64,000 nt of DNA from Branchiostoma floridae. Its lineage: Eukaryota > Chordata > Leptocardii > Amphioxiformes > Branchiostomatidae. The stretch is taken from NCBI RefSeq assembly GCF_000003815.2, contig NC_049984.1, positions 4,626,959-4,690,958 on the forward strand, given 5' to 3'. The notes under the pieces were generated by a model. The model searched no databases, was not told the DNA's origin, and saw nothing but the letters and a program-made list of their open reading frames with translations. Below are positions 7,801 through 63,957 of this stretch, piece after piece (the first letter of the stretch is position 1; every line of letters starts with the position of its first letter). The position numbers and the translations under genes were made by a program.

Positions 7801-9299
7801 TGATGGGATAATATTACAACTTGGTATTTCCAAAAAACAGGTCAAAGTATTCATTTAAATGGATCTATTTTCATTTTTGGAATACTTCTCCCTGGTACCC
7901 CTGTGAAAAAGAACCCCCTACCTGCTTACTCCAACTTTGATTGGAAGCACAACATTTTTTTCCCTAGGCCTGGGTTTGTTCAAAGTCCTCCTTTTGTGTT
8001 CCTCTTGCCTTCCAGAGGAGTGTGGCACTGTGGAGAGTGTAAAAGCAGCTAGCGACCTGTTAGCCCCTGTTAGCGGAGTGTGCATAGAAGTCAACAGCGC
8101 CTTGGAGGGAGCTCCTGAACTCATCAATAAGTCCCCCCACGAAGAAGGTAAGGAATGAAATTTAAACTTTGATTTGAAGCAAAGCTCATCGGTAATTTCT
8201 AACACAAAAGAGTGGGCTTAGTGCAATGCTAAGCTTTCTAACAACACAAGGTATACACAGATACAGATGCAGGGAAGCAGTGTTAACCGCTGAGTTGGAT
8301 TGTAGGCATCCTTCCATCTTTGCAGATGATGGTAGCGCTCTGTATCAGGTCACGGTGGTTGACAGCGTCTACTGTGGCTCTGTAGGCCGACCCTGGGTGA
8401 ATATGACATAAATAAGTAAATAAATAAAGATCAAATTGTCAACGACCACTGTTGCCTTTTTCAGGATGAAATAGAAAAGAGATACAGTTTACTTAGGAGT
8501 GCTAAAAAATTTATCAACATATAGTATTACATACACATGGTACAAAAAAGAGTAGAGTAAAAGGCTTAGGGTTTTGGTCACTTTAACTTTAACTTAAACA
8601 TGATATGACATTATTGGACTAGTTAAAGTGTAATATCCAACACAAAAATTGGACTCTTTTGATTGAACAGTACCAGTCCTTGAATGTCAAGGAATGAACA
8701 ATCCACAATTTTTGTGTAGGATATTGTTGTGTGTTGAGTGGAAACCCCCTACAAGTATGTGGAGTGGTAGGACCGAGAGGGGTCAGAGAGGAGGAAATTA
8801 GGTCTGACAGGAGTCTGGAAGGGAGAGCCAGAGGTGAGGGGCACTCCTGGAGGGAGTCCAGGGGTTGTGTGCCATGTGCGAGGAGAGATGAAGAATAAAA
8901 TAGACTATGTCTAGATCGTGTGTCTGAGAACCGAATAATGGCATTGTCGGCAGTTACAGTTTAACTAGTCCAATAATGACTTCTACCAACACAGATGAAC
9001 TTTCAAGTTATGATATGACATTGATGTTTTCCTTCTCCAGGCAGTTCTGCTAGAAGTGCTAGAAAATTTATCAACATATATCATTACATACACATGGTAC
9101 AAAAAAGAGTAGAGTGAAAGCTCAGGGTTTGGGTCACTTGTTTTACATAGACTTGAACTTAAACATGATGTGACATTGATGTTTTCCTTCTCCAGGCTGG
9201 ATACTAAAGATGAAGCTGAGCAAGCCAGAAGAGTTGGAGGAGTTGATGGATGAGGAGGCGTACCAGGCGTTTGTGAAGTCCGAGGAGCAGGAGTCTTAA
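1872..9299 (+). CDS. GCSH: Glycine cleavage system H protein, mitochondrial
   Basis: Five exons: 1872-2010, 4356-4435, 4960-5023, 8016-8147 and 9196-9299 (519 nt, 172 aa; human is 173 aa as I recall). All introns are GT-AG and the phases fit. The H protein carries a lipoyl arm that shuttles the aminomethyl group of glycine among the P, T and L proteins in the mitochondrial matrix. Residues 1-46 are rich in Arg, Ala and Thr without acidic residues until the end, like a mitochondrial presequence. The mature part starts with KKFTKDHEW, followed by GITNHAQ. The lipoylation motif TVESVKAAS places the modified Lys at about residue 104. The end [23 protein letters not shown] is typical of the family. 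The reading frame is complete with no frameshift. Intron 3 holds a GC-rich island and intron 4 a tandem duplication that copies the last acceptor. Confidence 0.95.
4019..4199. mobile_element. Foldback MITE in GCSH intron 1
   Basis: A 181-bp near-palindrome whose arms share ctccaagcagatcctacg in opposite orientation (about 4022-4050 and 4170-4197). It is flanked by identical 11-bp direct repeats TATGCCAGAAA at 4008-4018 and 4200-4210. A target duplication of 9-11 bp fits Mutator-like insertion; the superfamily is an inference. Confidence 0.7.
5113..5176. repeat. Short inverted repeat in GCSH intron 3
   Basis: Arms ctaccgagtctctttt and aaaagagactcggtag flank about 30 bases. It could be a solo hairpin or a tiny MITE. 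Confidence 0.55.
5400..5860 (+). other. GC-rich coding-like island in GCSH intron 3
   Basis: This segment is visibly richer in G+C than the intron around it. A TATAAAAG box lies at 5426-5433. One plus-strand frame stays open from before 5400 to TAA at 5705 (about 100 codons) and includes the stretch [19 protein letters not shown]; a second frame is open from 5440 to 5859. There is no ATG-initiated recognisable protein and no match to a family I know. It may be a captured exon, a retroposed fragment or the coding remnant of a transposon. Confidence 0.35.
7133..7971. mobile_element. TIR element in GCSH intron 3
   Basis: The left end aggcccaggaaaaaaatgtt and the right end, inverted, aggcctagggaaaaaaatgt pair as terminal inverted repeats about 28 bp long. 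The same end sequence bounds the nested complex at 34492-37345. No clear target duplication was seen and the interior has no transposase. The right end stops 45 bp before exon 4, so it supplies much of the sequence just upstream of that exon's acceptor. Confidence 0.5.
8428..8480 (-). mobile_element. Penelope-like 3' end fragment
   Basis: On the minus strand this reads as a diverged copy of the 'tgaagaaggtgacagtggtc' tail that also occurs near 15470 and 57900. It is a short remnant in GCSH intron 4, recognised only by similarity to those two longer copies. Confidence 0.35.
8496..9190. repeat. Tandem duplication in GCSH intron 4, split by an insertion
   Basis: About 110 bp at 8496-8610 (aaaatttatcaacatata... 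to taaacatgatatgacatt) recurs at 9046-9180. The two copies are separated by the inverted-repeat element at 8609-8978. In addition the acceptor tract tgatgttttccttctccag occurs twice, at about 9022-9040 and at the real exon 5 border 9177-9195. Confidence 0.7.
8609..8978. mobile_element. Inverted-repeat element in GCSH intron 4
   Basis: Both ends carry CATTATTGGACTAGTTAAA in inverted orientation (19 bp). The length is 370 bp. The interior is non-coding and no clean target duplication is visible. It sits inside one copy of a local tandem duplication. Confidence 0.6.
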
Positions 9300-9361
9300 G
9301 AGTCCTTCCTCCAGCAGTCATCACGGTCTTCTGCTGTAAAGCCTGTCTATCTAGGGGAGGG

Positions 9362-9695: not shown

Positions 9696-9708
9696 GAGGG
9701 GGTGAAGG

Positions 9709-9714
9709 AATAAA
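9709..9714 (+). terminator. Candidate GCSH poly(A) signal
   Basis: AATAAA about 410 bp after the stop codon. It is the first canonical signal downstream. Confidence 0.5.
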
Positions 9715-11769: not shown

Positions 11770-11779
11770 AGTGCAAGAC

Positions 11780-15193: not shown

Positions 15194-18100
15194 TCAGTTG
15201 AGATTTACGGGGGGAGGTTGCTGCGGAATGAGGGAAGTGAAGAATGTAGAAAGGAAGGTCCATGCCGTCAGGAGCATCCCTGGTTGCTGGATCGGCGGTG
15301 GTTCGGCCGGGTTGTCCCTCTCGTCTTCCGTACCGCTGCCTTCGCCGTTTTCCTCCTCAGCTTGGTCCTGGTTGGCAACACACAAGTCATTCATTTATTA
15401 TGGAAGCTCATCTGTGTCCATAGTAATCATTGTACAATGCAAAACCTCTTCCAACACAGTATTGATCCTGAAGAAGGTGACAGTGGTCGCTGAAAATTTG
15501 ATCCGTGTATACTTTTGTGTTGGAAGAAAGTTAAGCATTCTACTAACATGTATTCATTATTAATTTACTCATCAATCTTGGACAAAGAAGGGCAGCTCCT
15601 TGCAGCCAGATTTGGCTGACTGTCCAAAGGAGCCCTTGACAGGTAAACTTGACAGGAGGTCATGAATGATAGAAGTTAAATTACATTCAATTGTACAACC
15701 AAATATATGAGGTATGCATAAAGAGTGTAGCTGTATGCATAGACAGAATGCAGTGATTTGATCTAAATTCTGACCTTTTTTCAAATCAGATTATGTATAG
15801 CGATATTTTTGGTCAAAATAAGATTCCACCAAATGATAGAATGATGAAAGCTGGAGAAAACTGTGAAAGAACACGACATCATTTGGAAGAGGAGCTTTTG
15901 CCTGACTCACAGTTGACCAACCATACCAGACTGTAGATGATAAACAGGACATACCTGGTTTTCTGCCTCGTTCCTGGGTGGGTTCTCCACGACAGGCTCT
16001 CTCGGCGCCGGCGGTTGTCTCCTGCGAACTCTAAACCAGCCAGCCTGGAACCTAGAAACCGAAGATTATCTTTAGAAAATTCCTCAACCTCTGATGTATA
16101 GACTTGAGCAATAGCCAAGTGGGTAGAATAGTTCGCCTTGCATTTTGAGGTTAAGACTCAGGAAAAAAATTAAAGCTGGACATAGATGAAGATACCCCAA
16201 GTTGTTATGTACAATCATCAAGACTAACAAACAAATGCCTGTCATCTGGCCCCTTGTTTCATTTTCACCTTCAATCTAAGGTCGTTTATTTCAAATTTTT
16301 TCCCTGTGTTATTTCTTTTACTCTCACGTTAGATTTGGGTTCTGTAGAGTATGTCATCCATAAAATTTACTTGCTGTAGCCTTAGGCCACACCAATTTAA
16401 TTTCTTGGTTCACGGATTTTCTTAAGTGAAAATATAGCAAGCGGACATCATAAATGCAGCAGGCAGGGAAGAAAACTGGAATATGACCGTATTCACTTAA
16501 TAAAACTGAGTGCACTAAGGCATAAACCTGGTCCTCAGGCTTTGTTTTCATTGTGTTTTTCCAGTTAAGCATATCTTTTCTATTTTTTGAAAATCCTTGA
16601 ACCAACAGTGGCCTTGCAGGGCTCGAAATACTGGGGTTTTGTGCACCCAGGTGCACCCAAAATTGGAGCTGTGCACCCATTTTTTTTCTGTGGGTGCACA
16701 CCCAGGGGTGCATCCAAATGTTTTGATAGGCTTATGTATGTTAAGATGTCAGTATACTAAGTAAACACCATATTCTTGACATCTGTGAGTTAGAAAGATA
16801 ATAAAATGACTGTCATAGTACAGTTCCGATTTCTGAAGATACTAATTATAATAAGTAGGTTTGCAATTATGTTATTCTGATATTCTACTTTATTTTATGT
16901 GGTGCACCCAAAAATATTTTGGTGCACCCAATTTTCTAGTTTGGGTGCACCAGTGCACCTATTCCCAAAAATGAATTTCGAGCCCTGCTTGTGTTTCTTA
17001 TGCTTTATAAACATTGCCAGCTGACAGACTTACAAGTAAATGACTGTCAGCCCCACGAGCAGCAGCACAAATCTGCTGGTTGTGAAGTAGAAGTACACAC
17101 TGCTTGTTTTGCTATTGTTATGATTGCTGACAATGTGTTTTGGCGCCCTTTCCCATACGATAATCTCATAAAAAACCCGTTTTTCAAGGTCCCTGTTCAT
17201 TCTCTCTAACTCATGGAATAGTGTTTTCGCAACAGTGGGCATTGGCTGACGAAAAAAATTTCGAGCTGGCTAGATCCCTGAGGCAATATAAGATGATCAT
17301 CTTACAGTCTATGTTATTACATAGAATTTGCCAGTAGACTTACAAGTAAATGACCGTGAGTCCCACGAGCAGCAGCACGAATCTGCTGGTGGTAGAGTAG
17401 AAGTACACAATGCTCAGCAGCACGGCCGCCCGGCTCAGCGTGTACAGCCAGTCCAGCCAATCACGGTTCCCCTCCTCGTCGTCATCGTCGTCCATCACCA
17501 TCCCGCCCTGCGCGTTCATCCGCACGTTCTCCGGCCTCTGGTTGGCCGGCTGGTTGGGCGCAATGTTCTGATTGGCCACGACGGGCTGCTGGACTTGGGG
17601 GGCGATTGGTGCGGCGGTGGTTGTCGGCAATCCCCCGTATTGCTGAGCACTGGGGGGAAAAGAAGTGGTCTTGTGGTTAGGGGTGTTGATTTAGAACTGT
17701 AGGTTCTGGTTTGAACTGCGTGGAAATGAGCTTTTAAAAGCATAAAAGGGTCATTCGAAGGGGAACTGACAGATTTAAATAACAGGTCGTAACCTAATTT
17801 AGTTACTGATTAATCTGTTTTTCCAGTTTGAGCTGGATATGTTCTCTGGGGTAAGATTGTGCAAGTTGGCCGACAGGCTGAATAAAGGTTCAGAAACTAT
17901 GCGGCTCCATTGAGGAATGACTGCGGTGCGATAGTCCACTCTACTATATACAGTGCAAGTTGGAAGTTATGATGGTGCAGCAGCCCTGTGCAAAGAGCTG
18001 TTCATTATAAAACAATGGTGTCCAACTTACAGCTGCATGTATGCCATGTGCTGCGCGTACTGCCCGTACATCTGCATCCAGTAGGCCTGCTGAGGGTTGA

Positions 18101-25884: not shown

Positions 25885-26475
25885 CGAGAGGCGGTCAATA
25901 AGTAATGCCCCTGACCCACTTTCAGTCGTTTGATCTAGATGAAATTTTGCATGTGTAATGATTCATATCTTTATAGATTATGTTGCAAAAAACAGCTCTG
26001 AACTACTAGTAATTGTGGTTTCTGATTTACTGGTGTTTGAACTGAGTCAGGTGCGAAATGGACCAGGTGTGAAATGGAACCAGTTGAGTGTCGCGCAGTG
26101 ATCCGGTTTTTGTATTTGAAAGGACGCACACCAAAGAAGACTTTTGATCAAATGAAAGAAACTTATGGTGATGATGCCCCATCATATGACCTTGTAAAAC
26201 GCTGGCATCCTGAATTCAAACATGGCCGGAAGTCTGTGGAAATAGCTCCCAGACCTGGTCGTTCCTCTTCTGCCATTGATGAGGCATCTGTTGGAGGACC
26301 AACCTGGGGTGTCCTACAAAAAACGGTGTCCAGAGCTGCATCAAACGATGGGAGAAATGCATAACTCTGGGTGGTTCCTATGAAGAGAAAGACTGATAAA
26401 TGTGCCAAGTTTCATTAATCTCCCGCTATGGAAAATGGGTCAGGGACAGGGGCATTACTTATTGACCGCCCCTCG
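25885..26475 (+). mobile_element. Internally deleted mariner element
   Basis: Inverted ends CGAGAGGCGGTCAATAAGTA and, inverted, CGAGGGGCGGTCAATAAGTA are flanked by the TA dinucleotide expected for Tc1/mariner. The frame at 26074-26364 encodes the N-terminal helix-turn-helix (HTH_48-like) part of a mariner transposase: RAVIRFLYLKGRTPK..., YGDDAPSYDLVKRW, PGRSSSAIDE. It then runs straight into the 3' terminal region, so the DDD catalytic domain is absent and the copy cannot transpose by itself. Confidence 0.85.
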
Positions 26476-43500: not shown

Positions 43501-46500
43501 AAGATCAACCTCTGATACTGTTATTCTGGTTTCCATGACAACTCGGCAAGGATAAGTCCCCTGGATTTCCATCCCCCCCTTCAATCATGCAAGATCATAG
43601 GGAAGAATAATGGCATTAGTCTGCATTACAATCTGCCCTTCTGATCTTTTGATCAAAATACATTGAGATACTGTAAATGCATTTAAGTTCGCGGGATTTA
43701 ATTTCGCGGTAGCAGGAAAATGGACTTTTCGCGGTGGTTTTAAGTTTGCGGTAGCTCCATGCACTGTAGTCTCTTACTGCCATGGAAAAATGTACGCAGT
43801 GGTTTTAATTTCGCGGTGAGGCGGCCACCGCGAAAACCGCAAACATCAAACCACCGCCAAAGTTTCTGCATTTACAGTATACATTTGTATTCACTGAAAG
43901 CAAACAGTCTTCTGATCTTTTGACTTCTTTTTAAATATATATATGTAACGTTGAAGATTTTTAAAATCTCAACACAAAGATATGGTAATTTGAAAAGATA
44001 AACATTTCCTACTGGTTCCTTACATACAGATCTAGCAAAACGTAATTTTTAAAGTGAACTCGAGTAATGACGGTATAATAGCAGTGTGTTATGCCGTGTG
44101 CGATTACTGGTGTGACGAATATGTGAGAAATTGCCTCTCAAAAATGGGTAATTCATACTGTATATCATCTGTGTGTGTGGATGAAACTCACACATTTTGA
44201 TCAAAACAACTCCTAGGGCCCATTTCTCTTTGGTCCTCCGAAGTAGAAGATGAAAACAATTCTCCTCTCCTCAAAAACAAGTGTCCTTTGAAAATTTGTC
44301 ATCATAACCTACATATTAGTCTGTATTTATATTATCTGTATTACCGTTCCTACCCTTGGCGAACCCAAAGCTCCAACTATCCCCTCCCTTAACATCACAG
44401 TGGAGGGGGTAGCCAAACAGCTCTCCTGTCTTAACCCCAGCAAGGCCACAGGACCAGACGGATTACCACCTCGCCTCCTGAAGACCGTAGCCGAACAAAT
44501 TGCGCCAATATTACAGGTCATATTCTCCCAGTCAATATCCACGGGAGATGTTCCTGAAGATTGGAGAACAGCTAACATCGCTCCAATCTTCAAAAAGGGG
44601 GACAGAACCTTGCCATCAAACTATAGGCCGGTGTCTCTGACATCGGTCTGTGGTAAAGTGCTCGAACACATCGTGCACAGCCACATGATGAAACATCTAG
44701 ACGCTCATGGCATTCTGTCCCCTGCGCAACACGGCTTCAGGAAGGGTCTGTCCTGCGAGAGCCAGCTGGTGCTTACCCTCCAAGACCTGGCCAAGAACAT
44801 GGACCAGAACAAACAGGTCGATGCCGCGGTGCTTGACTTTAGCAAAGCATTCGATACTGTGCCACACGAACGTCTGCTGAGCAAGCTCGAGCACTATGGT
44901 ATTTCTGGCCTCCTTCAGTCTTGGCTTAGGGCCTTCCTTACGGAGAGAACCCAGAGGGTTGTCTTTGACGGTGGAACATCTAAAGCTGTCAAGGTCACCT
45001 CTGGAGTTCCGCAGGGTACTGTGTTAGGCCCTCTGCTATTCCTGCTCTACATTAATGACCTACCCGATTCCGTAGACTCACATGTTCGACTGTTTGCTGA
45101 CGATTGCTTGATTTATCGAACTATCAGCAAGCCTTCTGACGCACAAGGGCTGCAGTCTGACCTCGATGCGCTAACAGAATGGCAAAATCGTTGGCTCATG
45201 TCGTTCAACCCCTCTAAATGTCACATCCTCCATATCACCCGTAAAAAGCACCCCATCATAACTCAGTACTCCCTCTGTGGAGAAGCCCTTAGGGACCGTA
45301 CGGCGTTTAGTGAGGGGGGAGGGCCGGTCGTCAGAGGGTCGGGTCAAAAATTTTTTGGTAGGCCCTCCCCCCAGGTAAAAATTTTTTTGCTAGGCCCTCC
45401 CCCCAAGTCAAAATATTTTTGCTTGGCCCTCCCCCCTCCTATCAACTTTGAAAAAAAAATTCAAGACGCCAATGAAACACCGCGCTCCCATTTGGAAATG
45501 TGCTTTGCGTCATACTTTTTCATGATTTTCATCGCGAAGCAGATCTCTCACCCCTAGTAAAAAAAAGGAAAACAGAATGGCTCAAAATATCTGCTTATTA
45601 GAGGGATAAATATCTGCTTCATAGAGGCATAAATATTTGCTTTACAGAAGCTATTTCATTGTTTTGATATTAAAACAACACCTAAAAAGCATTTATATCT
45701 GGATTTCTAGCAGATTTGCGCCACGAAGCGGCGCGCGCCCCGCACCCTAAATTTACGTATTGCAAGCTCGCGGGCCTGAGCGGCTTGACGGAAACTATTT
45801 TCAATTTACATATATTTTGGACTTTTCCTTGGTTCTGTGGTGGTAATAACTTACGGTAAATCGAGGAAAAAATGAAAACCAAGACGACAGCACGATTTGA
45901 CTAACCAAAACTGTAGTGGGGAGGGGGGGCGCCGACGCTGATTTTCCCACGGCGGGGTAGATCGGCAGCCTCTCTCTAGCCGCCGGCGGGTGTGAGAACG
46001 CAGACTTGCAGGAGATCTTTTAGAAATGCCACGCTTTTTTGCCACGATTTCCTGCATTGCTTTTTTATGGGAAAATTTGCTGGTCAAATGACATTTCTAT
46101 GAAAAAAATACGACGGTTTCAAGTTTTTGAGAACGACGTTCCGAACACCATGTCTGGCGCGGCAAAGGCACAAAGAATCGCAAGGTAGGTCCGGGGAAAT
46201 TTTGAAATCTTGACCCTCTTAAAAGCTATTTCCTTCAGTTTGAGGGAAATATTTTGCTGACAAACAAAGCAAACTTTAATGGCATTTCAATTTAGAAATA
46301 CAAAATTGAATCCCCCTCCAAACACATTATCACGATGTCGGTCATCAAAGGCGCGAGTCCGGTCACGTCAAAAGGGATCCAGGGAATTTGCAAATATTTA
46401 CCCACGAGCTCTGAAACGCCATTTCTTACATTTTGATGGTAATAACACAGGGGTAAATTTTGCTGGCAGACTAATCTAGAGTTTAATAACTGTAAGTGAA

Positions 46501-49843: not shown

Positions 49844-52800
49844 ATGGCAGAGTCTTCAGACAAGCCGGAAGAGGCGGCCGAAGCCACGGAGACGGTTCCG
49901 AGTGTAGCGGTCATCACGGACGAAGAAAGAGAGCTTGCTGGGAAGGCGTTGCTACAGTTTGAATCTGGGAAGTACGACGCGGCATTGAACACTATCAGCA
50001 GACTAGAGGAGACACGACAAAATGATCACAAGGTTGGTTTGTATTGTATTATTATGTAACTGGTAAACCACCTAAATGTTTGGTCCACTCACACTCACTG
50101 GGGTAGACCCCTACTCTTTACTGGTAAGTGTGGTGATTTTTTAAAAGTTGGCTTTCCTACAACACAGACCCCCAGTTTTATATCCTATCAGGGAGTTTGT
50201 CCCTAATGGAACTCGGAAGCTTAGAAGTCATTTTTACAGAATGAATATTGTAAATGTTTAATGTAATGTAAATGCTAAGTGCCTTTCCCAAAGGCATAGA
50301 TTCAACAACCTTATGATAGTTATATAAAGGCCCTGATGACACTATTGTAGAAGAATTATTTTTATTAAACAAAAACTTTTCAAAGACTTAACATGTAAAA
50401 TTTCAGCCTCTTACAGTACCGGTAACAGAAACATAGGAAGTAATGGGTCAACAGAAACACTTTCATACATATAGGGAAAGTCTTGATTGACCTTCCCTTA
50501 TATTGTCCATCAGGTCTTACATAATAGAGCAGTGGTGGAGTTCCACAAGTCCAACTGTACCAAAACTGACGAGTTCAGACAGAGGTTGCAGACGGTATGC
50601 TCACAGGTGAGAATACTTTTCACTTCAAATATTCTTATCGTCATCGGAGGAATCCCTCCCTTGGTTGGCTGACTTCACTCTGTGGGAGACACTCTTATCG
50701 ATTTGACCTCTTCTGAATTGTTTTTTAATATTAGACATGCCAAATTCATTGTCATGGTGATGGAAATTCTGTAATTTTTTAAAAATTGTTTTAGTCCTTT
50801 TTTGGTAACAAGGTATAAAAGTAAGTGTAATGGTCCCAGGATCATTCCTTTTGGAAACCCCTGGTACTGTGTCTAGAACTGAGGCTTAGATATGCATTAA
50901 TGGTACTTCCATTTGCTCCATGTTTGTATGAATGCTTTCATCAGGGTAGAGTCGATTTCACATTACCAAGAGGGTCTTTCTTGCCTTTTGTTCCAACATT
51001 TTGAAAATCTTTATAACGTTCTAAATGTGATAAGTAACTGTTTAGAACTATCTATAATATCTGTGTGATGTTCTTAATATTTTCTATAGTGTTCATACAT
51101 GTTAGAAACATTTCTAACATCAAATCCATTATTTCTGTTAGTTTCTAAACTGTTCCAACATAGATTTATCATTTGTGATCAAATGTGATCATATGTTCGA
51201 ACAGTGAAACAAAATGATGAAACTGGGTCAGTGGGCTGGGAAGAGGGCAATTCACACATCCCTGCCAAGTACAGGAAATTGTGTCTGTCTGACAGCTTTT
51301 CACAAAAGAGCCACTAGTGTCTACTAAAAATACAAGACCCAAACAAAAGGCCCTTATTGGGGTAATAAAAGTTTTTATGGAGGAAAAAAATGACGCAAAT
51401 TGTTGGAACATATGATCACATGTTCCAACAATAACAAAAACACATAGATGTTTCTAAATTGTTCTAAATAAAGAGATATTTGTACCATTAATTTCCCAAT
51501 GTTTCCAACATATATAGATATGTTCAAACATGTTCACACTTTCATTTTCATTTGTTTGAACAATTTAGAACTAGTGACTGAAATATTCTTTTGCTTAGAA
51601 TAGTTCAAACTTATTACAAATATTATTTCAAAACCCTCTCGGTGACTCGGAATCGACTCTTTTGCCATATTTGACAGATAATGGGGAAATACCATGACCT
51701 TTTTGACTAGATTATGTTTTTGTTTTAGTTGCCTGTAACTTTTACCTCTTGTTACCCACAGTGCATCTTGCGTCTTATGTACTGATTTACTTTAACAATA
51801 AACCAGCCTATTAAATCCCATAACCTTTGTTTTCCAGCTCAGCATCAAAGTGAATGACCTGGATGGTCTGGAGGATGTGGACAACGGTGTCATTTTTCAT
51901 TCATTCATTCATTGTAGCATTTGTGCTGTGTAAAAAGATATTCACAAACTATTTGAAAGATAAAGAGGAAAACAAATGGCTTTAGTACAAACTTATGTAA
52001 CATTATATTCTTTGTTTTCCAGCTGAGCATCAAAGTGAATGACCTGGATGGTCTGGAGGATGTGGATAACGGTGTGCTGTACTATAACCAAGCCGTGGTG
52101 AGGTTCCACACCAGGCAGTTCCAGGAGGCCGCTAATATCCTGGAGAAACTCTTCCAGTTCATCGAACCTCTAGGTAAACTTTCTCCCCTATATGATGTGA
52201 TTTTTCATAAATGAATTGATACTGTAAATGTAGAAATTTTCGCGGTGGTTTTATGTGTTTTTTGCAGTTTTAGCGTTGCCAATTCACTGCAAACTTAAAA
52301 CCAGTGCGAACAATTTTCCATGGCATTCACTGCAAACTTAAAACCAGTGCGAACAATTTTCCATGGCAGTAAGAAACTACAATGCATGGTGCTACTGTGA
52401 AATTAAAACCACCGCAAACAGTCCTTTTCCCGCTACCGCGAAATTAAATCCCGCAAACTTAAATGTATTTACAGTAATGGATTTGATGCTCATGATTATT
52501 ATGATCAGTTATGAAAAGTATAATATCCAAAGAAAGGCAGAGGGCCTGGTGTTTTGCTCGGTCAAATACATGTATGATACGCTTGGGCCAAAGTCCATTG
52601 GATGCTCAAGTTCTGATGAAAAGTATGTTGCAGCCACAGACTGACACATAATTCTTACTAATATTAATTAAAATCAACTGTTGGCTTATTAATAATTTAC
52701 ATTCACAGTGTTTATTGGGTGTAATTTTTACTGTATTGTATTCTATTTCAGAAGAGACTCTTGCCAGGAAAATCTATATGGTGTTGATCGACCTGTATCT

Positions 52801-55163
52801 GCTCACATACCAGGTAGGATTTTTGGCAACACTTCAGGGGCAGGGACATTTTGTTTAACTGAAATAGGATTCATGACCCTCATTGTGATTGCTACTAAGT
52901 TTAGTTGATGCATTTTCTACTCCAGATGGCGCATAGGGCAGTGCCTATCTCTTTAAAGTTTTTCAACAGCCCTACGGTTGCACCACACAATCACTGCAGA
53001 AGGCACTGGTAGTGGTGTGTGTACAACTACCATATGTGCTCCTTTACAATTGCTGAATGGAAAGCAGAGAAAGCGAATAAGTCTTTGATATGACTTGGCT
53101 GGGGATCAAACTAATGACTAATACGTAGAATGCAAAGGCAAACACTCTACTCATTTGGCCATTGCATCAAGTAATTTTTTCCTGAATTTTCAGGCTGAGA
53201 AAGCGCTACACATGGTCAGTTACTTTGACAAGATGCTCTTCGACCCCCCGAGTGCTGGGAAAAGCAAGGAGGGAGCCCAGGACAAGGACAAAGACAAGGA
53301 GAAAGACAAGACGCCAGAGGTAAGATGTGTGTTTTGGTTACTTGTGTGGTCCTGTAGCCAAGAGATAGAAAGGCATCAGAAAATGTTCTAAATAGATCTC
53401 CTACAGAAAAATCTATACAAAAAATCTATAAATCAATAAATTTCTAGACCAGTTTTGACTGTACTTGCATAATCACAAGAAGACTGTTCAGATCTATTAT
53501 CAAGAATTTTGAAAATATGATCATCTGATCAAAACAGACTTTACAATGTATATTGCTTAACAAAGCAATCTTGTTGGTATATTCAAAAGAATATCATTAA
53601 GAAATAGTATAAACAATTTTGAAAACAAGTGTTGCTTTTGTATTGTTAAATCAGAGCGGAGCCACGCCCGCTGCTGCCAAGGAGACAGCGATAGAAACCG
53701 TGTCTCCAAACGAAGAGTTCCGACCGCTCCTGCACCAGTACAAAGCTCGCTGCTGTCTGCTCGCCAAGTCCATCAAGGCCTGCAAGAGAGAGATCAAGGC
53801 TGTCATCAACACACAGGGCATGGTGGGAAATCATGATGCTAGTATATGCAGATTTATGCAAATGAACCACATGTTATGATGGGTAATGTTTTGTGAAAAT
53901 GGTATGACTGGTAACCCAAAAATGGCACAAGTTGCTCACCAGTAAAGGTATGTGATGAAAACTACAATCTTAAGAATACTGCACTGCAAAAATGTCTACA
54001 TTTTTACCATATTACCATGATTATTCATCTGTTATGCAAATTTATGCAAATAAACTATATGGGATGGATAATGTTTAGTGAAAATAATAAGAATATTGGT
54101 AGCCCAAAATAAATGGAACAAGTCGCTGATACCAGTGAAGCTATGAGACTACGAAAGCTAAAAACTTCAAAATACTGTACTGCAAAAATGTAAATTTCTT
54201 ACAGTTTTACAATAATGGTGGACATCTGTTGGTCTCAAGTATTACAGAGGTTATATTGTAATTTAAAAAAAAGCATTATTGTATCAAATTTTGCTTCATC
54301 AGTTTTACATTGTAATCCATAGATTGTTCAGCTAGACTTACTGAAGAATTTTTACTGGATATTCCAAAAAGCAGTTACTCAAGCAACTGGATATGATTTT
54401 GGAAACGCTTAGACGTTTAAACTTGCATCCACTAGTTTTCGTCAGCGACAAAACCATATCCAGCTGCTTGAGTAACTGCTTTTTGGCATCTTATTACCTG
54501 GGTGTCTAACCTTCATCGACGTTACTGGATGTTCATTTGTTACTTACGCATTTACAGACGAGCACTACCATCTTCCTGAAAGCGAACTTCGAGTACCTGC
54601 GGCACAACTACCGGAAAGCGGTGAAGCTCCTGAGCAGCATTCCCGATGCTCCACGGATGATGGAGCTGGGAGAGTGGATCCCGGTCATGTTTTACAACAA
54701 CCTGGGTGAGTGTGTGTGTGTGTGTGTGTGCGTCTGTGTGTGTATGTGTGTCTGGCTGTATGTGAAGCTCCTGAGCAGTATTCCCGACGCCCCGCGGATG
54801 ATGGAGCTGGGAGAGTGGATCCCGGTCATGTTCTACAACAACCTGGGTGAGACAGGTTTATCATGGGTGTTTGGAATAGTCTTTTAATATGCTTGAGTAA
54901 AGATAAGTGTAGAGCTCTTTACTTTACCTTCCTGAAGTAGGGAGGGAGTTGAAGTATTGTTTTTGGATTGTGTGCGTGTGTTTGTGTGTGCTGCACGTGT
55001 GTGGATGTGTGTGTGTGTGTGTGTGTGACTATGTGTATGTGTGACTATGTGTGTGTGTGACTGTGTGTGTGTGTGAGACTGTGTTTGTATGTGTCTGTCT
55101 GTGTGTGTGCGTGTTCGTCTGTGTGCATGTGTCTGTAACTGTGTCTGTGTGAGTCACTGACTA

Positions 55164-55205
<42 letters not shown>

Positions 55206-58200
55206 TGTATCTGTGTCTGTGTGAGTGTCAGTGTGTTTCCTAAGGTTCCTCATCTACAAAATACATATGGAATCTATATCTGATGAAATGTAGTTCTTTG
55301 AAACACATTCTGTATTGATACTGATGATAGCCTCAGGACCAATCTAGATTGCAGTTCCTTTGCCAAGCACTAGGGGGTGCACTTTCACTTATCTGCACTT
55401 TCCTTCCCCTTTGCCAGGCTGTATACACTTCTACATGAAGAAGTACAATCTGGGGGCCTTCTATTTCAAAAAGGCCATGCAAGAGAACGACAACAGGGCC
55501 CAACAGCTGCCCAAACGGGAATCAGGTTAGTGCCTGAAAATCCAGGAATCTACATATGTCAATTCATACGTACACATGAACCCACAGTGCCTAAAAATTT
55601 TTAAGTTTACCTTGCTTTCAGAGGTGCTATAATGCCAAGAGCTGAATTTTTTTTTCTTTTTTTTTTGAAAACACACAAAATTGATTTTATAATTGTTATG
55701 ACTCAAGGGGCAAAGAACAGCTGGTTTTGATGACGTAAAAACCTTACCAATACAGAGATGTGGGTTCAGATAAACAGCTGTTGATGCCTTTATCATTGTT
55801 TATGACATGTGCCATGCCAAGGTGTCCTTGGGCTCAAGGTCATTATATCAGAGTCTTAAGGTTCTGGGTATAAATCTTTAGCAGGTCCTTATGTTGTTGC
55901 GGTTAGGAGGTTTGTATAACATTAGGAACTGATGCTTTGCCTGACTCTACTCTGTACGTCAGCATTTAAAATACTGGTTTGACTCTAGCTGTGTCGCTCA
56001 CCCAACATGCATGCTAATGGACAGTGTGGCAGTCCTTAAGACGGGAGGTCAAGCAGTGGTTCACTGTTCATTGTGCTTGTCGAAATGAGCTAGAGGAATG
56101 ATACAATGAAGCTGTAAAAATGTTCATAATGTCTGTCTTCTCTGTCACGACCAGCGGAAGCATAGCTCTTCAGTGAGCTAAACTGGATCGAGATCACTTT
56201 TTTGACCTCCTGTCCACACAGACCAAATTGTATCAGTCCCCTCAGTTTTTGTCCTGGACAGTTTTGACTGTTTTTTCCTTAATATTCTAGGACAAGTATT
56301 ATCAGGGCGCCCGCTGCACACCCTGGCCACCAACAAGCACTACGAGATCAACGTTACTTTTACTTTTCTTGACCACCTGTCCATAATCCACACAGACCAG
56401 ATTGTATCAGTCCCGAAGTAGTCAACTGGACAGTTTTGACTTAACCGGTGTAACACAAGCTCTGCTGTCTGGGGCTGTAACTGGCTTCTCCCGCAGAGTT
56501 AGAGGTGCACCTCTTACTATGAACTGAGGGGGCTGTTACGGAAAGAAGTAACAGTATGCAATGGTAGGCTGGCTGGATGTTAGGCAGGCTGCTATAAGCG
56601 AGAATTAATCGGGCTAGTTTTGACTGTGTTTTCTTGATTCTAGGACTTGTTACACCAATGGTAGGCCGGCCGGATGTTAGGCGGGCTGCCATAAGCGAAA
56701 TTTAATCAGGCTAGTTTTGACTGTTTTTTTCTTGACTCTAGGACAAATATTGTCGGGGCGACCGCTGCACACCCTGGCGACCAACAAGCACTACGAGCTG
56801 CTGTACAACGCAGGGATCCAGCTGCTGCATGCTGGGAGACCCCTGGCAGCGTTCGACTGTCTGATTGAGTCTGTCCAGGTGTACCACTCCAACCCCAGGC
56901 TGTGGTTACGGATCGCTGAATGCTGCATTGCTGCAAACAAAGAGGTGAGGCCATAGCTCCTTTTTGTCAAAGTCAAAAGTCCTTCCCGCACCTGTTGGTT
57001 CATAGGGCGGCACCCATCCCTGTTTCAGTAGCCCTGGGCCACACACAACCTTGTGCAATCACTACAGCAGGGGGCTAGTCCACTGCCATATTCTTTCCGA
57101 ATGCTGAGTGCTAAGCAGAGGAAGCAGCATGTACCACTTCTTAAAAGCCTTTGGTATGACTCAGCCAGGGATAAAACTCCTGACCTACCAAATGCAAGGC
57201 ATATACTAATCAGGTGCAATTCGTTGAACTACTAATTGCAATGGACAGTCAGGATCAGTCTAACTCCTGTGTGTAAAACTGATTTTGGTTGGGGAGGTAA
57301 AAGGCTGTGGAAGGCAATTTGCCAGGTTATTTCATATTTGTGTTAATTAAGATGTTTATCTTCAACCTTTTTTGTTGTTTAGACCCCTGAGAAGGAGAGT
57401 AGGGGCATCCCCAGCAAGAAGCAGATGTGTTTGCCTATACACTGTAGGGCGTGTAGGCTGATGACAATTTTCCAGGCTATTTGTGTTCAGATGTTTACAT
57501 TTACCCTTTTTATTATCTAGACCCCAGAGGAGGAGAGTACCTCTATGACCTTCTAGAGGCTATGAGAGTCACACTCACTGTCTGGTTTTATCATCTCTCA
57601 AGGGCTAGATGTGTTTGTTTATGCCCTGGTGGCTGATTTATGTATAGAACTTACCTTTGCCCTTTTTTATTATCTAGACCCCAGAGGAGGAGAGTAGGGG
57701 CATCCCCAGCAAGAAGCAGATGTCGTCCCAGGGCGTGGTGGGGTCGGGTTTCCACAGGAAGCTGGTCGTCATGTCCCCCAGTCAGAAGGGCAACAAGTTC
57801 ACGTAAGTCAGGGCTCAAAATATAGTACAAAGCTAAACTTTATTCCAACACAATACTACACACGGATCATATTTTCAATGACCACTGTCACCTTCTCCAG
57901 CTCAGGATGAATACTGATGACCAATCACTTCAGAACGTCAGCTCGCAAGTGTCTTGTCTCTCCAATGTAGGATTCTTCACAAGTCCCATTCATAGTAGTT
58001 CCCTTATATGAAATGTGGTATACCACGCCATATTTCTTTTCTCTGAGGTTTTGTCCTTCAGTGGCATGAGAAGCTGTCACAGTGCTCGAAATACTTTTTT
58101 CAGCCAGTTTTTTATTATCACCTCACCTCACCTCACCGGTCCCATAGCCTCACCGGCCGTAGGGGCAGCACATCCATCAACATAAGTTTTCCACCCTTTT

Positions 58201-61200
58201 CTGTCCTCAGCCAAGGTTGCAAGATGGTTGACTGTTTGTCCTGACCAGTCTTTCAAATCACTAGTCCAAGTCCGCCGTGGACGACCCCTAGGTCTTGCAC
58301 CCTCCGCCCTTCCTTGGAGTATGGTGTGGGTCAAAGTACCCTTTGCTCTTGTAGCATGGCCAAACCACTGTAGTTTCTTCTTTTTCACTAGTGACAGGAA
58401 ACTTGGACGCGGGCCTACTAGGGACTTAACACGCTGCATGACTTCTCTGTTAGAAGTGTGAGTTGACCAGTGGACACGAAGTAGTCTTCGGTAGCAGTTC
58501 ATCTCGAATGCATTTATCCGTTTCACAATCTCTGCATTTAGAGTCCAAGACTCAGCGCCATACAGGAAGATTGATTTTTATTATATTGAAACATATTTAG
58601 TATAATTCAATAAACACAGATGTTTGTACAAAATATATATGTAGGAGTCCTTCCCGGTATGAGTGGATCAAACCTTACAGTCTGGTCTCTGGGTTGACAT
58701 CTTGAAAAGGTGATACATGTAGTCACCCGTTATGTCAATCCTTCCACAAATGTGGCTCCCAAACTACAAGTGAAATGGAAAAAGTTTAAAGCTGGAGAAA
58801 GCCCTGATCTAAGTTTTAAAGTATGTGACTCGTTTTTATTTCTGTTTTCCCAGTGGCCCCAGTGGCCAGTCCTCTGCCATCCCGGTCGCTAACCTGGAGT
58901 TTGCCGCCATCTGCCTGAAGAACGCTGCCATGCTGCTGCCGGAGGAGGCGGGCACAAAGGATGCTGGGAGTGCAGGGCATGCTGGGACAGGTGTGCAGCT
59001 GGGCGGCCACAGTCTGGACTCTGGTGACATGTTTGATGGGTGAGGACTGAACGTTGAGAAAAGGATGATTTTGTGGATTAGTAAGGGGCCACACTGATTC
59101 AATAATATGGATGACATCCCAGGGCAGTTTGATTTACCTTATTGTAACTTATTTTCAACATAGCTGCATCACTTTTTCACAAATCTAGCTGGTGTGTTAC
59201 GCCGAACGGCGGTTATACCGGCTATATAGATACAGATACAGATTTAACAACGCCAAAGTATGCCGCGACCAAATCCACTTACTTCCAGGTAGCCTACCAG
59301 AAGTAAGCCAGTCGTAGATTTCCCAATCGACCTTTGAGGTCAGAGTTCTAAGGAGCTTGGCGAGGGCTTTCAACAAACTTCAGTAACGATTCGAGCGAAC
59401 CACCGAACGCGTTCTAGTGCATTCCTTGGTTCATCAGAAAGATGGAAAATAGCGGACAACTCAAGCGGCGGTGGGAAGTCCGCATATTTCAAGATGTCCT
59501 CACGGGACAACTAAGTCATATCCATACGTTGTGAATATTGCTGTGCAATGTAATAAGGTAGACTCATTCATAATGTAGAAAAATGACCAAATAATATTTT
59601 TTACAATACAGTGTATATCCCTTTAAGGAAAGCACAAGATGCCACCATCTTCTGAACTGTTGTTCATGATGATACCTTGTCCCACCCACAGGTCATTGCC
59701 GGGAGACAGTGGGTGTGTAGCAGCTCCCCCTGGCTTCCCTCTCAAGCCACTGCAGGCAGCCAGCCTAAGGTAAGGGTTTTACCAGCCTCATTGAGCTGGT
59801 CATGACTATCCTAATAATATTGTTTTAGACTATTGAAATCAACAACACAGCCAATAGGTAGACTATATTGAAACAGACATGCAGGGTAACATACAGAGTG
59901 TTTATTTTGAATTCCAAGTCAAATTACATAATTCTAGTTGAAATGGCATCACACAACATGTTCAAAGTCCATAGAGTGGCTATAATATGGTCAAAAACTA
60001 AACCATAGATTCATTATATTTATTAAAATGAAGACAACATTAAGGTGATGCCTTCTTGCCTGTTTTAGCTACCAACTAGGTTTCTCTTCAAATGAGGCAA
60101 TAGAATTCTGTGTATATCTAATTTGAAAGTACAGTTTGTACTACTAATGACCACCTCAACATAAGGGCTAACGTAGCCAATTCGGCCATATTTTGTCAGT
60201 CCCTTGGATAAATTTTTCCCATTGACACAACCATTAAGAATCCTGTCTTTGGTGACCAAATTCTATCTGCCCTCCGAGTGATCGAGTGATATTCCTGGGT
60301 AGTTTCGACTGTAAAGGAAATTGTGGATCTTTGATTTGTTTTTGCACAGATTTTTCCTGGTACACTGTGTTATTATGCTATGCATGTGATTTATGACATT
60401 TGCTCTGTTTCAGGTGTTCGGTGTTAGCGTGCAGTGCGTACGTTGCGCTCGGACTGGGAGACAACGTGACGGCTCTCCACCACGCACAGAACCTTCTCAC
60501 ACAACCTTCACTCTCAGGGTCCCTCAAGTAAGTTTAAAAAGAACCAGGAAATATCTGGAAATCATTTTGTAAATATTAACCTTTGTTTAGAGAGCATAAG
60601 TTAGCGCTATCAGAGCCTGTTGCCGCATGCTCAAATATGGCCAAAACAAATTCTGTATATGTTTTTCAAAGTGTGTCTTGTGTAATATAAGATATTTCAA
60701 GAGCGAAAGTCGGTAAAAGTTACCTCACTGTAATTAAGTGTAAATATGTTACTTTGGTTGGATGTGGGACAACTCAATGTTTAAATCATAGTTGTTTGAA
60801 TTTTTATAGGTTTTCTTCTGCTATAAGTGTAGACAAATGCAAAAAACTTTTGAGATTTGCACACCACTACTAATTGTAGTAGTAGTTTCTTTAATATATG
60901 GTTCTTGAAAGCTTTTTGAGAGTAGGTACATTTATAACTGAGTTTTTCCCAAAAAATTGTCAGTGTGTCAACTATACAGAGACAAATCTATACTGCAGTT
61001 CCTCTATGTGTCACTAGGAAGCACACATATTAATCGCTCGAATTACTCCCTTAGATTCCTGGGGCACCTGTACGCAGCTGAAGCACCGATCTCCCTGGAC
61101 CAGGCTACTTGAATTACACTGTAGTTTGCAATAAACAAGGCATTACCATCATATACATTAGCAGCATACATTCTGATGTTCTAATAACATTTCAAAAACA

Positions 61201-63957
61201 TTTACCTAATATCTTAAATGACAATCCGTATACATCATGTATTGGGTAAAAAAATGGAATAAAAGTCCGGGGGAATTATTCTCCCTTAAGTTTAGTCTCT
61301 ATGTACAGTGCTGCTTCTGGTAGCAGAGGATGCTGGGATCATCAGTCAGCAGCTTTATGGCATACTATTTAAAAGTTGAACCAGGTAAGGGATTGCCTGG
61401 CATTATTCAGCTCCTCTTTGAGTTATTAGGATAATCACTTTGATCATTCCCCTAGATTCCTGGGTCACCTGTACGCAGCTGAAGCACTGATCTCGCTGGA
61501 CCAGGTGTCTGAAGCCATCCAGCACCTGAACCCAGACAACATCAGCGACGTGTCGGTCTCCTTACCTGGCACTGTGGATACCACAGGTGAGCTGCTATAC
61601 AACTTTTCCTCGTGACTTTCCTCACTTCACTCAGAGTTGAAAATGAGTACCTACATTCAGTTTGGACCGTCCTTCGGATAGGACGTTAAATGAAGGCCCC
61701 ATTTTTGAGGAGGCCATACTTTGAGCATGTTAACAAACCCATCGCACTTATCGAAAAGAGTAGGTTCCTTCCCGGTGTGAGTGGATGAAATAAATATGTC
61801 TGGATATGCAGCTTGTATAAAGTTCAGTATAAACCTGGTGTGTTATGCCAACAACAAAAATGAAAATTTCTTCATTCTTTTTTCTCCTCCTTCTCCCCTT
61901 TCCCCTTCCTTACTGGGTTTTCTTCTTTTATTTTCATTCGTTTTCTCTGGCTCTTCCTTCCCTTCTTCCATTCCTTTTGTTCCTTCCTTCTTTCTTTTGT
62001 TCCCTTTTTCCTACTTTTATCCCTTCCTTCCTTCCTTCCTTCTGCGCATCCTTCCTTCTTCCTTTAGTGGTATATGGAATGAGTAATTGTCAGTCTCTAG
62101 CTTTTATGTCATCGATGTAGTTGAAGTTTAAAGAGGAGAGGACTAATGCTTGCCAATGTTGCTCCTTCTTCAGCTGAAAAGGGGAAGGGATCAGACGAAG
62201 GAGAGGAAAGAGAGAGCCAGGGTAGGTACAGTAAGGCTGTAATGCTTTCACATTGCAAAATAGAAGGAAAGTTATGTTTGTTAGAGTAGTACAGATCTTC
62301 CACTGTTAAGTATGCATGCTTGTCGTAGAATGTACTATGAATGTTGGGACTCGATCCGAATATGTGTTGTTTTGTATGTATGTGTGTGAATTTTTCCCTA
62401 AGTAAAGAGGAACAAAAGCAGATTAACAACTGACCCTTGACAGTAATTTATCTTCTTGTTTGTGGATGCTTACTACATTTGCCAAGTAGGTTATTTTTTG
62501 GTAGCATGTGTAGTTTACTTTGTAGTGTGACAATGAGCTGTTGTCATGATATCTGGTACTGGTATGTTGGTAGGTGTTGAAATAATATAGAATGAGTTCA
62601 GTCATGAGCCTCCTAGTGGTTTCCTTTGGTACAGCAGCAGAACATCCAGTTTGGTTGTATTTTGTACGAAACATGCCATGGTCATGCCATGTAAGTGGCT
62701 GGTAGCTTTTAGGTCAGGAAAGAAGTGTTGATTGTTTTAGCCCCCTAGTGGCCTTTCTTGGACCTACAGACATGTTTTTATGAGAAGCTTTAATGTTTAC
62801 CTTTTTCCCCACAGCAGTGCACAGTCAAAATTACCCACACTCCCTGCAGTCTGCCAAAGCCACCTTAATGTTCAACCTGGCCAGCGCTCACTGTTTACGA
62901 AGCGAGTTTGAGAAAGCCAAGAAGTGTCTACATCAAGTAAGACTGCAGTTTCAAATCTCTTTATTAGTGTAAGAAGTTTATTTGCAAGTTCGTGCCCGAT
63001 GGCTATTAGTAATGCAATCTACAGGTACATTTTGTGCCTTTAAGTAGTTTGCTGCATTTACAGATTTTTTTACACATTCTTGGTTGTTTGAGTGGTCATT
63101 GACACATTAACTACTGTTGGTGTATCTGTTACTGGTATACTGTAATGGAGTATACAGAAAGAGTAGTAGTACTAAGTATCACATGTTGGGTTACTGGGAA
63201 TACTATATAGTAGCATATTTAAATACAGCAGATAAGGCTCACATTTTAAAAACTTTTTTTTTAATGAAATTTATAAAAAAAGAAGGTACTAAAACCATAG
63301 TGCAGTTTATTTCAAATGTTACATTTGTAGCAGCAATTGCTGCTGTGTTCAGAAAAAAAGTATTATTATCATTGTTAGATAGAAGTCAGATTGAAATCAG
63401 AGCAGTCTTGATATGACAGTTTCAAGTTGGCTGTTCTATTTTGCAGGCTGCCTCCCTGATCCCACCCAATGAGATTCCTCCACAAGCAATAATGCTGGGT
63501 GTATATCTGGAGCTACAGAGTGGTAAGACCACTGTCTTTTTTTATGTGTTAAAATACAAATATCTCACTGATGATACATGTACCCAGTACTAGATGTTAT
63601 TAAGTCAAATTCTCAAAAAGCAATTGCTGAAAATGTGTCACTGACAAAAGACAATGGATGGTTGTCTGAAACGTTTGACCGTTTCCAAAATCATATCCAG
63701 TTGCTTGAGTAACTGCTTTTTGGCGTGAAAGACATTTAAAACTCAAATATCTTAAAATATACAGTACCACCTCTAGGCCCTTGTTAAGTTGTCTCTTCCT
63801 CTACCTCCCTACAGGAAACACGAAGCTGGCTCTACAGATCATCAAGAAGAACCAGCTCATACCACTGCTGAAGGGGAGCGACTCTAACGCCCCCCTCCCC
63901 GCCAGCAACACCCCTCCCACACCGCTCACTAGGGCCAAACAAAAACCTCGCAAATAA
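49844..63957 (+). CDS. CNOT10: CCR4-NOT transcription complex subunit 10
   Basis: Eighteen coding exons: 49844-50032, 50514-50606, 52023-52173, 52752-52813, 53194-53319, 53655-53822, 54558-54705, 55418-55525, 56742-56944, 57678-57802, 58854-59039, 59692-59769, 60414-60527, 61456-61586, 62174-62221, 62815-62936, 63447-63522 and 63815-63957 (2271 nt, 756 aa; human about 744). All junctions are GT-AG and in frame. CNOT10 binds CNOT11 and docks on the N-terminus of CNOT1 in the CCR4-NOT mRNA deadenylase. Tetratricopeptide-like helices run through it. Strong family stretches are [108 protein letters not shown] and [14 protein letters not shown]. Lys/Asp-rich insertions (exon 5) are lineage-specific. 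The copy is intact. Introns hold partial exon copies and transposon fragments. Confidence 0.96.
51838..51890 (+). pseudogene. Partial copy of CNOT10 exon 3
   Basis: The acceptor tract ctttgttttccag and 53 exon bases recur here, 185 bp upstream of the real exon at 52023. The two differences in the exon part (CTC/CTG and GAC/GAT) are synonymous. The copy stops inside the exon and has no donor. Confidence 0.85.
52220..52476. mobile_element. CTGTAAATGCA MITE, copy 3, with internal duplication
   Basis: Ends tactgtaaatgtagaaattt and aaatgtatttacagta. A 'cactgcaaacttaaaaccag...ccatggca' block of about 45 bp is repeated in tandem inside. Confidence 0.75.
54364..54486. mobile_element. Foldback MITE in CNOT10 intron 6
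   Basis: The arms ccaaaaagcagttactcaag and cttgagtaactgctttttgg are perfect inverses, followed by 'ctggatatg' opposite 'catatccag'. A related, less complete copy is at 63612-63723. Confidence 0.75.
54712..54761. repeat. (TG)n tract between an exon and its copy
   Basis: An interrupted TG microsatellite directly after the exon 7 donor and before the partial exon copy. A second long TG-rich stretch lies at 54970-55214. Confidence 0.9.
54762..54846 (+). pseudogene. Partial copy of CNOT10 exon 7 with donor
   Basis: 85 bp matching 54621-54705 plus the following gtgag donor. There are five base differences, all synonymous in the CNOT10 frame (AGC/AGT, GAT/GAC, GCT/GCC, CCA/CCG, TTT/TTC). The copy has no acceptor of its own. 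Confidence 0.9.
56291..56346 (+). pseudogene. Partial copy of CNOT10 exon 9
   Basis: After a 'cttaatattctag' acceptor, 56 bases match the start of the exon at 56742. There are four synonymous differences and one conservative change (Ile to Val). It breaks off at tacgag. Two more acceptor-like 'gttttgactgt...ctaggac' copies in the same intron (about 56615-56647 and 56713-56746) show repeated local duplication. Confidence 0.85.
57383..57540 (+). pseudogene. Two partial copies of CNOT10 exon 10
   Basis: 57383-57428 repeats the acceptor and the first 46 bases of the exon at 57678, with one Glu to Lys change and one synonymous change. 57521-57540 repeats the acceptor 'tattatctag' and about 20 bases. 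Both are truncated at different points. Confidence 0.85.
57826..58104 (-). mobile_element. Penelope-like element 3' fragment with GIY-YIG motif
   Basis: On the minus strand the sequence encodes [13 protein letters not shown], then [11 protein letters not shown], which fits the GIY-YIG endonuclease start of Penelope-like elements. It is followed by a stop and the 'ctggagaaggtgacagtggtc' tail found also at 15440-15530 and 8428-8480. The reverse transcriptase part is missing. Confidence 0.55.
58112..58575 (-). mobile_element. RTE-like LINE 3' fragment
   Basis: The minus-strand frame 58128-58570 encodes [43 protein letters not shown] and a Pro-Arg-Gly-rich end. This is the conserved C-terminal region of many invertebrate LINE reverse transcriptases. 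A GGTGA-type tail follows at 58112-58134. It is 5' truncated and abuts the Penelope-like fragment. Confidence 0.7.
61055..61103 (+). pseudogene. Partial copy of CNOT10 exon 14
   Basis: The acceptor ccttag and 49 exon bases match the start of the exon at 61456. There are two synonymous changes and one Leu to Pro change. The copy stops right after the GACCAG codons. Confidence 0.85.
61858..62063. repeat. Polypyrimidine tract in CNOT10 intron 14
   Basis: About 200 bp of nearly pure C/T on the plus strand with (CCTT)n and (TTTC)n runs. Frames across it are low-complexity Phe/Leu/Ser/Pro and are rejected as genes. Confidence 0.85.
63612..63723. mobile_element. Second copy of the intron-6 foldback family
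   Basis: The right arm cttgagtaactgctttttgg is intact and preceded by aatcatatccagttg. The left arm is decayed (ctcaaaaagcaattgctga). Confidence 0.6.

Follow-up and report, generated by a model that had tools for sequence, protein, structure and literature searches.

The introns of CNOT10 and HERPUD in this stretch of lancelet DNA contain truncated copies of the ends of neighbouring exons, and these copies differ from the working exons mostly at silent positions, as if they were recently working exon ends. The stretch analysed, referred to here as the window, is 64,000 nt long (C6:4626959-4690958, C6 being the record that carries it). The copies are real mirages, that is, short local duplications spanning an acceptor or a donor, very probably of Branchiostoma floridae. 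The explanation preferred here, to which close to an even chance is given, is that the intronic units of these mirages are exchanged with the working exon ends of other haplotypes.

Gene models and exon-edge copies

All gene models were assembled manually, guided by reading frames and splice signals. That of CNOT10 comprises 18 exons with 756 codons, the first 684 residues of which are matched by human CNOT10 chains (1e-216). HERPUD lies on the minus strand with seven exons modelled inside the window, and its best PDB matches include the ubiquitin-like domains of HERPUD2 and HERPUD1. Four exons were modelled for GCSH (GCV_H 2e-44). Self-comparison of the window, read against the gene models, revealed boundary copies at five of the 18 CNOT10 exons. 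Acceptor-side copies lie upstream of CNOT10 exons 3, 9, 10 and 14, and donor-side copies lie downstream of CNOT10 exon 7 and HERPUD exon 6. The features are as follows (window positions).

52023..52173, plus strand: CNOT10 exon 3, working (gene model, CNOT10 match)
51825..51890, plus strand: acceptor-side copy of exon 3, intron end and 53 exonic nt; 97% over 66 nt; 2 silent, 0 amino-acid differences
54558..54705, plus strand: CNOT10 exon 7, working (gene model)
54762..54851, plus strand: donor-side copy of exon 7, 85 exonic nt and GTGAG; 94%; 5 silent, 0 amino-acid differences; 141 nt downstream, in frame, open
56742..56944, plus strand: CNOT10 exon 9, working (gene model)
56260..56346, plus strand: acceptor-side copy of exon 9, 56 exonic nt; 4 silent, 1 amino-acid difference
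56559..56646, plus strand: further intron unit of exon 9, acceptor at 56644 and about 3 exonic nt; 89% to 56656-56744
57678..57802, plus strand: CNOT10 exon 10, working (gene model)
57356..57428, plus strand: first acceptor-side copy of exon 10, 46 exonic nt; 1 silent, 1 amino-acid difference
57495..57539, plus strand: second acceptor-side copy of exon 10, 18 exonic nt; exonic part identical, 0 differences
61456..61586, plus strand: CNOT10 exon 14, working (gene model)
61031..61104, plus strand: acceptor-side copy of exon 14, 50 exonic nt; 86% over 74 nt; 2 silent, 1 amino-acid difference
17344..17649, minus strand: HERPUD exon 6 with membrane segment, working (gene model; ubiquitin-like domain match of the gene)
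17026..17104, minus strand: block holding the donor-side copy of HERPUD exon 6; 90%; 6 silent, 1 amino-acid difference over 63 nt
9196..9299, plus strand: GCSH last exon, working (gene model with the GCV_H match)
9010..9042, plus strand: copy of the end of the last GCSH intron with AG, about 2 exonic nt; 97% to 9165-9197
8485..8612, plus strand: upstream intron unit of the GCSH repeat; 8485-8563 is 89% to 9042-9120 and 8494-8612 is 85% to 9051-9177

The earlier note had described such copies in three unrelated genes. This holds for the five exons of CNOT10 and for HERPUD exon 6; at GCSH the last acceptor is repeated with only about 2 exonic bases, which makes it a copy of an intron end and not of an exon. 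Repeats that span an acceptor or a donor, the defining mark of an amphioxus mirage, are present at all these sites of the window, at GCSH by the intron end only. Exon 10 of CNOT10 has three units; at exons 3, 7 and 14 and HERPUD only two are seen.

The HERPUD exon 6 copy runs from 17098 to 17034 with 65 exonic nt followed by GTAAGTCT, and adjoins a dispersed repeat. It starts at the end of that repeat (17095-17280; also 34710-35043 and 40303-40659), one breakpoint being the repeat edge (partly by eye). The upstream GCSH unit seems, by eye, to be interrupted at 8612-8977 by an element whose ends are inverted (ATTATTGGACTAGTT and its complement). At 56431-56722, in the interval that separates the exon 9 copies, GTTTTGACT borders a segment whose ends are inverted and GGTGTAAC-like; judging by eye, a transposon may have split the array there.

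Other features of the window include a LINE-like reverse transcriptase ORF at 44292-45557 and 46629-47423 (RVT_1 1.4e-34), which is interrupted by 32 nt repeats and has insert edges that are repeated further, some of them inverted. A minus-strand ORF of 263 codons (33130-33921) has weak similarity to adenylate kinase, below the cut-off, and an ORF at 26041-26364 carries the HTH domain of mariner-type transposases (HTH_48 4.3e-9).

Codon pattern of the window copies

The seven exon-bearing copies of the window, one of them without any difference, show 20 silent and 4 amino-acid differences from the working exons. Over 84.7 silent and 278.3 other sites this amounts to pS 0.236 and pN 0.0144. The site counts include the second exon 10 copy (18 nt, no difference), which stands outside the 11-locus set described below. 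If the copy decays freely and the exon remains constrained, about 14 of the 24 differences are expected to be amino-acid changes. Simulation with kappa 2 and with kappa 4 each gave a single run in 5000 with four or fewer, and kappa 1 gave none; when CpG sites were made 15 times as mutable, the fraction was 0.001 of 3000 runs. Among the CNOT10 amino-acid changes, that in exon 14 is derived in the copy, since the exon and the human protein have L and the copy has P; at the other two the human protein has a third residue. The HERPUD change is presumably also derived in the copy, judged by the human residue.

The intron flanks of exons 3, 10 and 14 and of GCSH differ at 15 of 95 sites. Overall, silent and intron divergence is about 0.16-0.3; of the silent sites alone, 24-30% are different between copy and exon. 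The copies and the exons seem to have diverged while both were constrained, the copies having lost constraint only recently. With this divergence, and with an array of five units upstream of the window, the suggestion in the earlier note that the window shows an early stage of the process is not borne out.

Loci outside the window

Positions upstream are given as G, the record position minus 4427000. Exons outside the three genes were located by a codon score that recovered 13 of the 18 CNOT10 exons, and the upstream loci are a partial list, chosen by eye. Outside the window 11 duplication clusters overlap a codon-score segment, and the four read first (51567, 68375, 72593 and 171564) looked like exon edges. 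One of the repeats read as exon edges is listed here.

C6:4598783-4599519 (G 171783 to 172519): five-unit array upstream, with four intronic copies, u1-u4

Compared in pairs over 20 codons, the array copies differ by 4 (u2/u3), 6 (u2/u4) and 8 (u3/u4) silent and no amino-acid changes, all at third positions; u1, which has a 1-nt deletion, was left out of this comparison. Against the exon, u4 shows 7 silent and 0 amino-acid differences, u2 4 and 1, and u1 7 and 1 (one codon lost to the deletion), while u3 shows 2 and 0 over the 20 codons and 4 and 3 over all 24, the last four lying outside the pair count. Copy u4 represents the array in the 11-locus count.

The DENND11 gene was named from Pfam (3.6e-12), and its copy shows 2 silent and 1 amino-acid difference over 13 codons, or 1 and 2 over 14 codons with the gap placed as by the aligner. 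At the likely gene G72 the copy follows the stop codon, and at G68 36 nt are identical, without differences. Another upstream gene is provisionally termed AUTS2-like. The exon texts of the AUTS2-like gene and of G72 gave no Pfam match, and both are read as coding from their codon score, open frame and splice signals. A globin family search of the genome gave nine loci, of which L032 carries a 157 nt donor-side repeat and L036 three acceptor-side copies at spacings of 154, 158 and 158 nt (4 units). One Gb6 copy, D1, represents three, D2 and D3 having 2 silent and 0 amino-acid differences each. Codons were omitted at the 1-nt deletion of DENND11, at the 7-nt deletion of G72 and at the edge of Gb9.

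Counted with one copy each, 11 loci in seven genes or likely genes (five exons of CNOT10, which make up 5 of the 11, HERPUD, DENND11, G72, the AUTS2-like gene and two globins) show 48 silent and 9 amino-acid differences, with pS 0.302 and pN/pS 0.057; free pseudo-copies are expected near 0.5. Simulated free copies gave 33.3 amino-acid changes of 57 on average and never fewer than 20 in 3000 runs. Dropping any one gene (1500 runs each), or raising the mutability of CpG sites 5 times, still gave no run that reached the observed value. The loci not chosen by their pattern, namely the window copies and the two globins, give 36 silent to 8 amino-acid differences (binomial P 5e-8).

Seven further clusters were scored later. 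With one copy in the segment, cluster 54563 gave 2 silent and 1 amino-acid difference, 152957 gave 2 and 3, 163579 gave 0.5 and 6.5, and 190496 gave 0 and 2. With both copies in the segment or its ORF, 78738 gave 1 and 1, 198187 gave 1 and 10 or 6 and 5, and the array of cluster 133233 gave, by pair, 1.5-8.8 silent and 7-31.2 amino-acid differences. These seven may be candidate exon edges only and are perhaps non-coding. When the four one-copy clusters are added and DENND11 is taken in its less favourable form, the sum is 51.5 silent to 22.5 amino-acid differences, with 43.2 of 74 expected (P 2e-6). The later-scored clusters are richer in amino-acid changes and the upstream list was picked by eye, which weakens the generality of the silent bias.

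Controls

A degenerate tandem GCSH gene 11 kb upstream shows no silent bias. Its mismatches fall 6/7/7 by codon position, and no stop was found at the matching place. Compared with the working gene, its exons show 2.7 silent and 17.3 amino-acid changes when the final 18 nt are disregarded, and 6.3 and 21.7 when they are counted. A relaxed copy in this region thus looks different from the exon-edge copies. The tandem pair occupies G 195263-198181 (record about 4622263-4625181) and window 4356-9299, and an 89 nt stretch is identical between the two. Beside it, on the minus strand, two long tandem ORFs with receptor-like text (by eye) are found at G 190823-191478 and 198279-198934, with 94% identity over 656 nt. 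Among 30 non-coding pairs (ungapped block of 48 nt, 3 mismatches) none had 80% of its mismatches in one phase.

Three other causes of the silent bias were considered and rejected. CpG hypermutability was excluded by the simulations at 5 and 15 times; few CpG>TpG mutations are given in the accessible part of a de novo mutation study. Gene conversion within one chromosome after duplication erases both kinds of difference alike and, by this argument, cannot take pN/pS below 0.5. As for detection bias, free copies of such age would by arithmetic be about 88% identical and easily found.

Frequency against background

A same-strand copy (score of at least 50, on the intron side, within 700 nt) is present at 7 of 54 splice sites, compared with 73 of 1636 one-sided intron windows of the same genes and 58 of 2596 windows overall. 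At a score of at least 80 the figures are 6 of 54 and, for the intron windows, 26 of 1636. A splice site of the three genes lies inside 7 of the 11 duplication clusters of the window, against 1.88 expected by circular shift (P 0.0007). Within CNOT10 this applies to 5 of 6 clusters, against 2.81 expected (P 0.07), and the enrichment inside this gene alone is only suggestive. Copies of constrained exons stay recognisable longer than copies of introns, so no claim is made that duplication targets splice sites.

Local direct duplications are common in this region. There are 64 clusters in 314 kb, or one per 4.9 kb, with a median best identity of 82% and a median offset of 185 nt, and the 11 of the window are an average number. 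A 43 nt unit at 52282-52368, exactly repeated twice, is a very young local duplication. The formation step of the exon-edge copies may well be ordinary short tandem duplication. It is improbable that nothing further is involved, that is, that common duplications spanned splice sites by chance and left inert, freely decaying truncated exons. The cluster density, the P of 0.07 inside CNOT10 and the amino-acid changes of the later-scored upstream clusters agree with such dead duplicates. They predict, however, about 33 amino-acid changes of 57 where 9 are seen, and 43 of 74 where 22.5 are seen with the four uncertain clusters included. Moreover, none of the 54 splice sites scores between 23 and 59 (the next score after 59 is 23), so strongly decayed copies were not seen among them.

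Divergence between haplotypes

The same low degree of probability as for dead duplicates is assigned to capture in a single step, in which one unequal crossing-over between strongly divergent haplotypes made each copy, and what now separates copy and exon is old allelic variation. Such an origin accounts directly for the silent bias, and haplotype regions that differ considerably, occasionally by more than 5%, are described in the accessible part of PMC6461651. The mean allelic silent divergence at these loci would, however, have to be 0.24-0.30, against a species mean silent diversity of 0.0397 for B. floridae (PMC12862219, in part), and arrays of 3-5 units require several such events. Repeated exchange of units between haplotypes is the preferred reading and is taken up below.

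Splice signals, anatomy and flanks

The AG or GT is kept in all nine scored copies. Their splice-site scores range from -0.0 to 12.3 bits and those of the working sites from 1.5 to 14.7, each copy scoring no higher than its working site. The acceptors or donors are shifted by 98 to 451 nt, a distance that is not a multiple of 3 in eight of the nine copies; only the exon 7 copy (141 nt) keeps the frame. A correct protein requires the unit that runs on into the remainder of the exon. Duplication of an acceptor must therefore leave the truncated copy upstream and duplication of a donor must leave it downstream, and the cases in the window fit this placing.

The intron flank is also repeated clearly at exon 10 and partly at exon 3, and the right flank of exon 7 was borderline (P 0.034) in the flank test. 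The same test detected no homology beyond the exon piece at exons 9 and 14 and HERPUD, although intron units around exon 9 are separately repeated. An arrangement in tandem, like that of a minisatellite, was seen at exon 10 and in the five-unit array upstream, and in part at exon 3. With flank homology clear at exons 3 and 10 only, simple tandem duplication is not demonstrated for every site.

That the copies are translated as alternative exon ends and selected as protein is quite unlikely. The retained splice signals would agree with it, as would the exon 7 copy, which is near, in frame and open. On the other hand, nearly all shifts break the frame, and inspection by eye showed no strong donor where the acceptor-type copies break off, though the exon 3 copy has a weak GT close to its end. 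The copies of DENND11, G72 and array u1 contain frame-breaking deletions and are therefore intronic at present.

Haplotype mis-joining in the assembly, by which the copy is the other allele placed in tandem and which the earlier note had offered as pervasive, is the least probable of the alternatives. It would give a silent bias, and according to PMC12373286 the reference assembly of B. floridae used there does not resolve the haplotypes. Against it, pS is 0.236 in the window and 0.302 at the 11 loci, about 6-8 times the silent diversity of the species, and there are more than two versions at exon 10 (3), the upstream array (5) and L036 (4). The flank test gave no homology past the exon piece at exons 9 and 14 and HERPUD, the window is without N, and the repeats of PGBD5 were confirmed by re-examined Sanger and Illumina data (PMC3902484, in part). 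When the 90 nt piece of exon 7 was searched against the genome, only its two window copies were among the best-scoring candidates. The codon pattern does suggest that the units came from different haplotypes, through exchange and not through assembly error.

Comparison with published mirages and other systems

The reading of the copies as mirages, made in the earlier note, is upheld: the anatomy is that of the published amphioxus cases (accessible parts of PMC3087553 and PMC3902484), and repeats of BflGb6 and BflGb9 length occur in the same genome. Published B. floridae units measure 157 bp (BflGb9) and 150-160 bp (BflGb6) (PMC3087553, in part), with which L032 and L036 agree in unit length and boundary type; on this agreement the genome is taken to be that of B. 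floridae. In the accessible parts of both papers, units range from 10 to 160 nt and their numbers differ between haplotypes or assemblies (6 and 3; 2 and 7; 3 and 6). The mirages of BflGb6, BflGb9, Adh3, troponin C and PGBD5 share with the present ones low-copy boundary repeats, intronic copies and conserved splice signals. New here are the five exons of CNOT10, HERPUD, the GCSH intron end, the DENND11 gene and the AUTS2-like gene; the shifts of 98 to 451 nt and the mostly silent divergence are different. No mention of the codon positions of the copies or of mostly silent divergence was found in the accessible parts of PMC3087553 and PMC3902484. The loci are thus new and the kind is already known; as far as the searched literature shows, the mostly silent divergence is apparently undescribed.

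Rogers-type intron gain by tandem AGGT duplication (cited in PMC3087553, in part) likewise involves duplication across splice signals. In the present case, visual inspection of the duplicated exon 3 and exon 7 pieces revealed no AGGT, and no new intron was seen. Mutually exclusive exon duplicates are tandem exon copies with silent-biased divergence; the copies described here differ in being truncated and, by eye, without a good second splice site.

Proposed exchange of units between haplotypes

Splicing can use only the unit that continues into the remainder of the exon, so the other units are read as intron and look like truncated exons. Under the proposed exchange, and with an effective population size of about 1.7 million, units would repeatedly pass from the working to the intronic position and back through recombination between haplotypes, either non-allelic conversion or unequal crossing-over. 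Every intronic unit would then have served as a working exon end not long ago, or would have been overwritten by one from another haplotype. Such exchange would purge amino-acid changes and let deep silent divergence build up.

A coalescent model with interchangeable units, pi 0.0397 and 3-10 moves per 2N generations gave pN/pS 0.02-0.10. Against exchange, the mean pS of the model is only 0.08-0.22 for 1-4 copies, below the observed values for the window and for the 11 loci. The reading rests on one assembly, in which no second haplotype was seen. With the B. floridae mutation rate of 5.89e-9 given in a source accessible in part, the move rate needed would be about 4e-7 per generation (arithmetic, pN over mutation rate). 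Non-crossover conversions are abundant in this species and mostly under 200 bp (PMC12500494, in part), so a rate of this order is not extravagant.

Implications

In PMC3087553 mirages are treated chiefly as an oddity and as one way in which new introns might arise. The codon pattern found here suggests something other than inert debris. It also cautions against taking low dN/dS alone as proof that a copy is translated, and against assuming that exon copies in introns must be errors of assembly. A wider view is put forward tentatively, with perhaps one chance in three: mirages may constitute a population-wide pool of interchangeable exon ends, in which recombination swaps intronic spare parts into the working exon, and non-coding DNA would come under a protein-level selection that is not its own. 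If this is general, a measurable share of lancelet intronic DNA would evolve under borrowed coding constraint.
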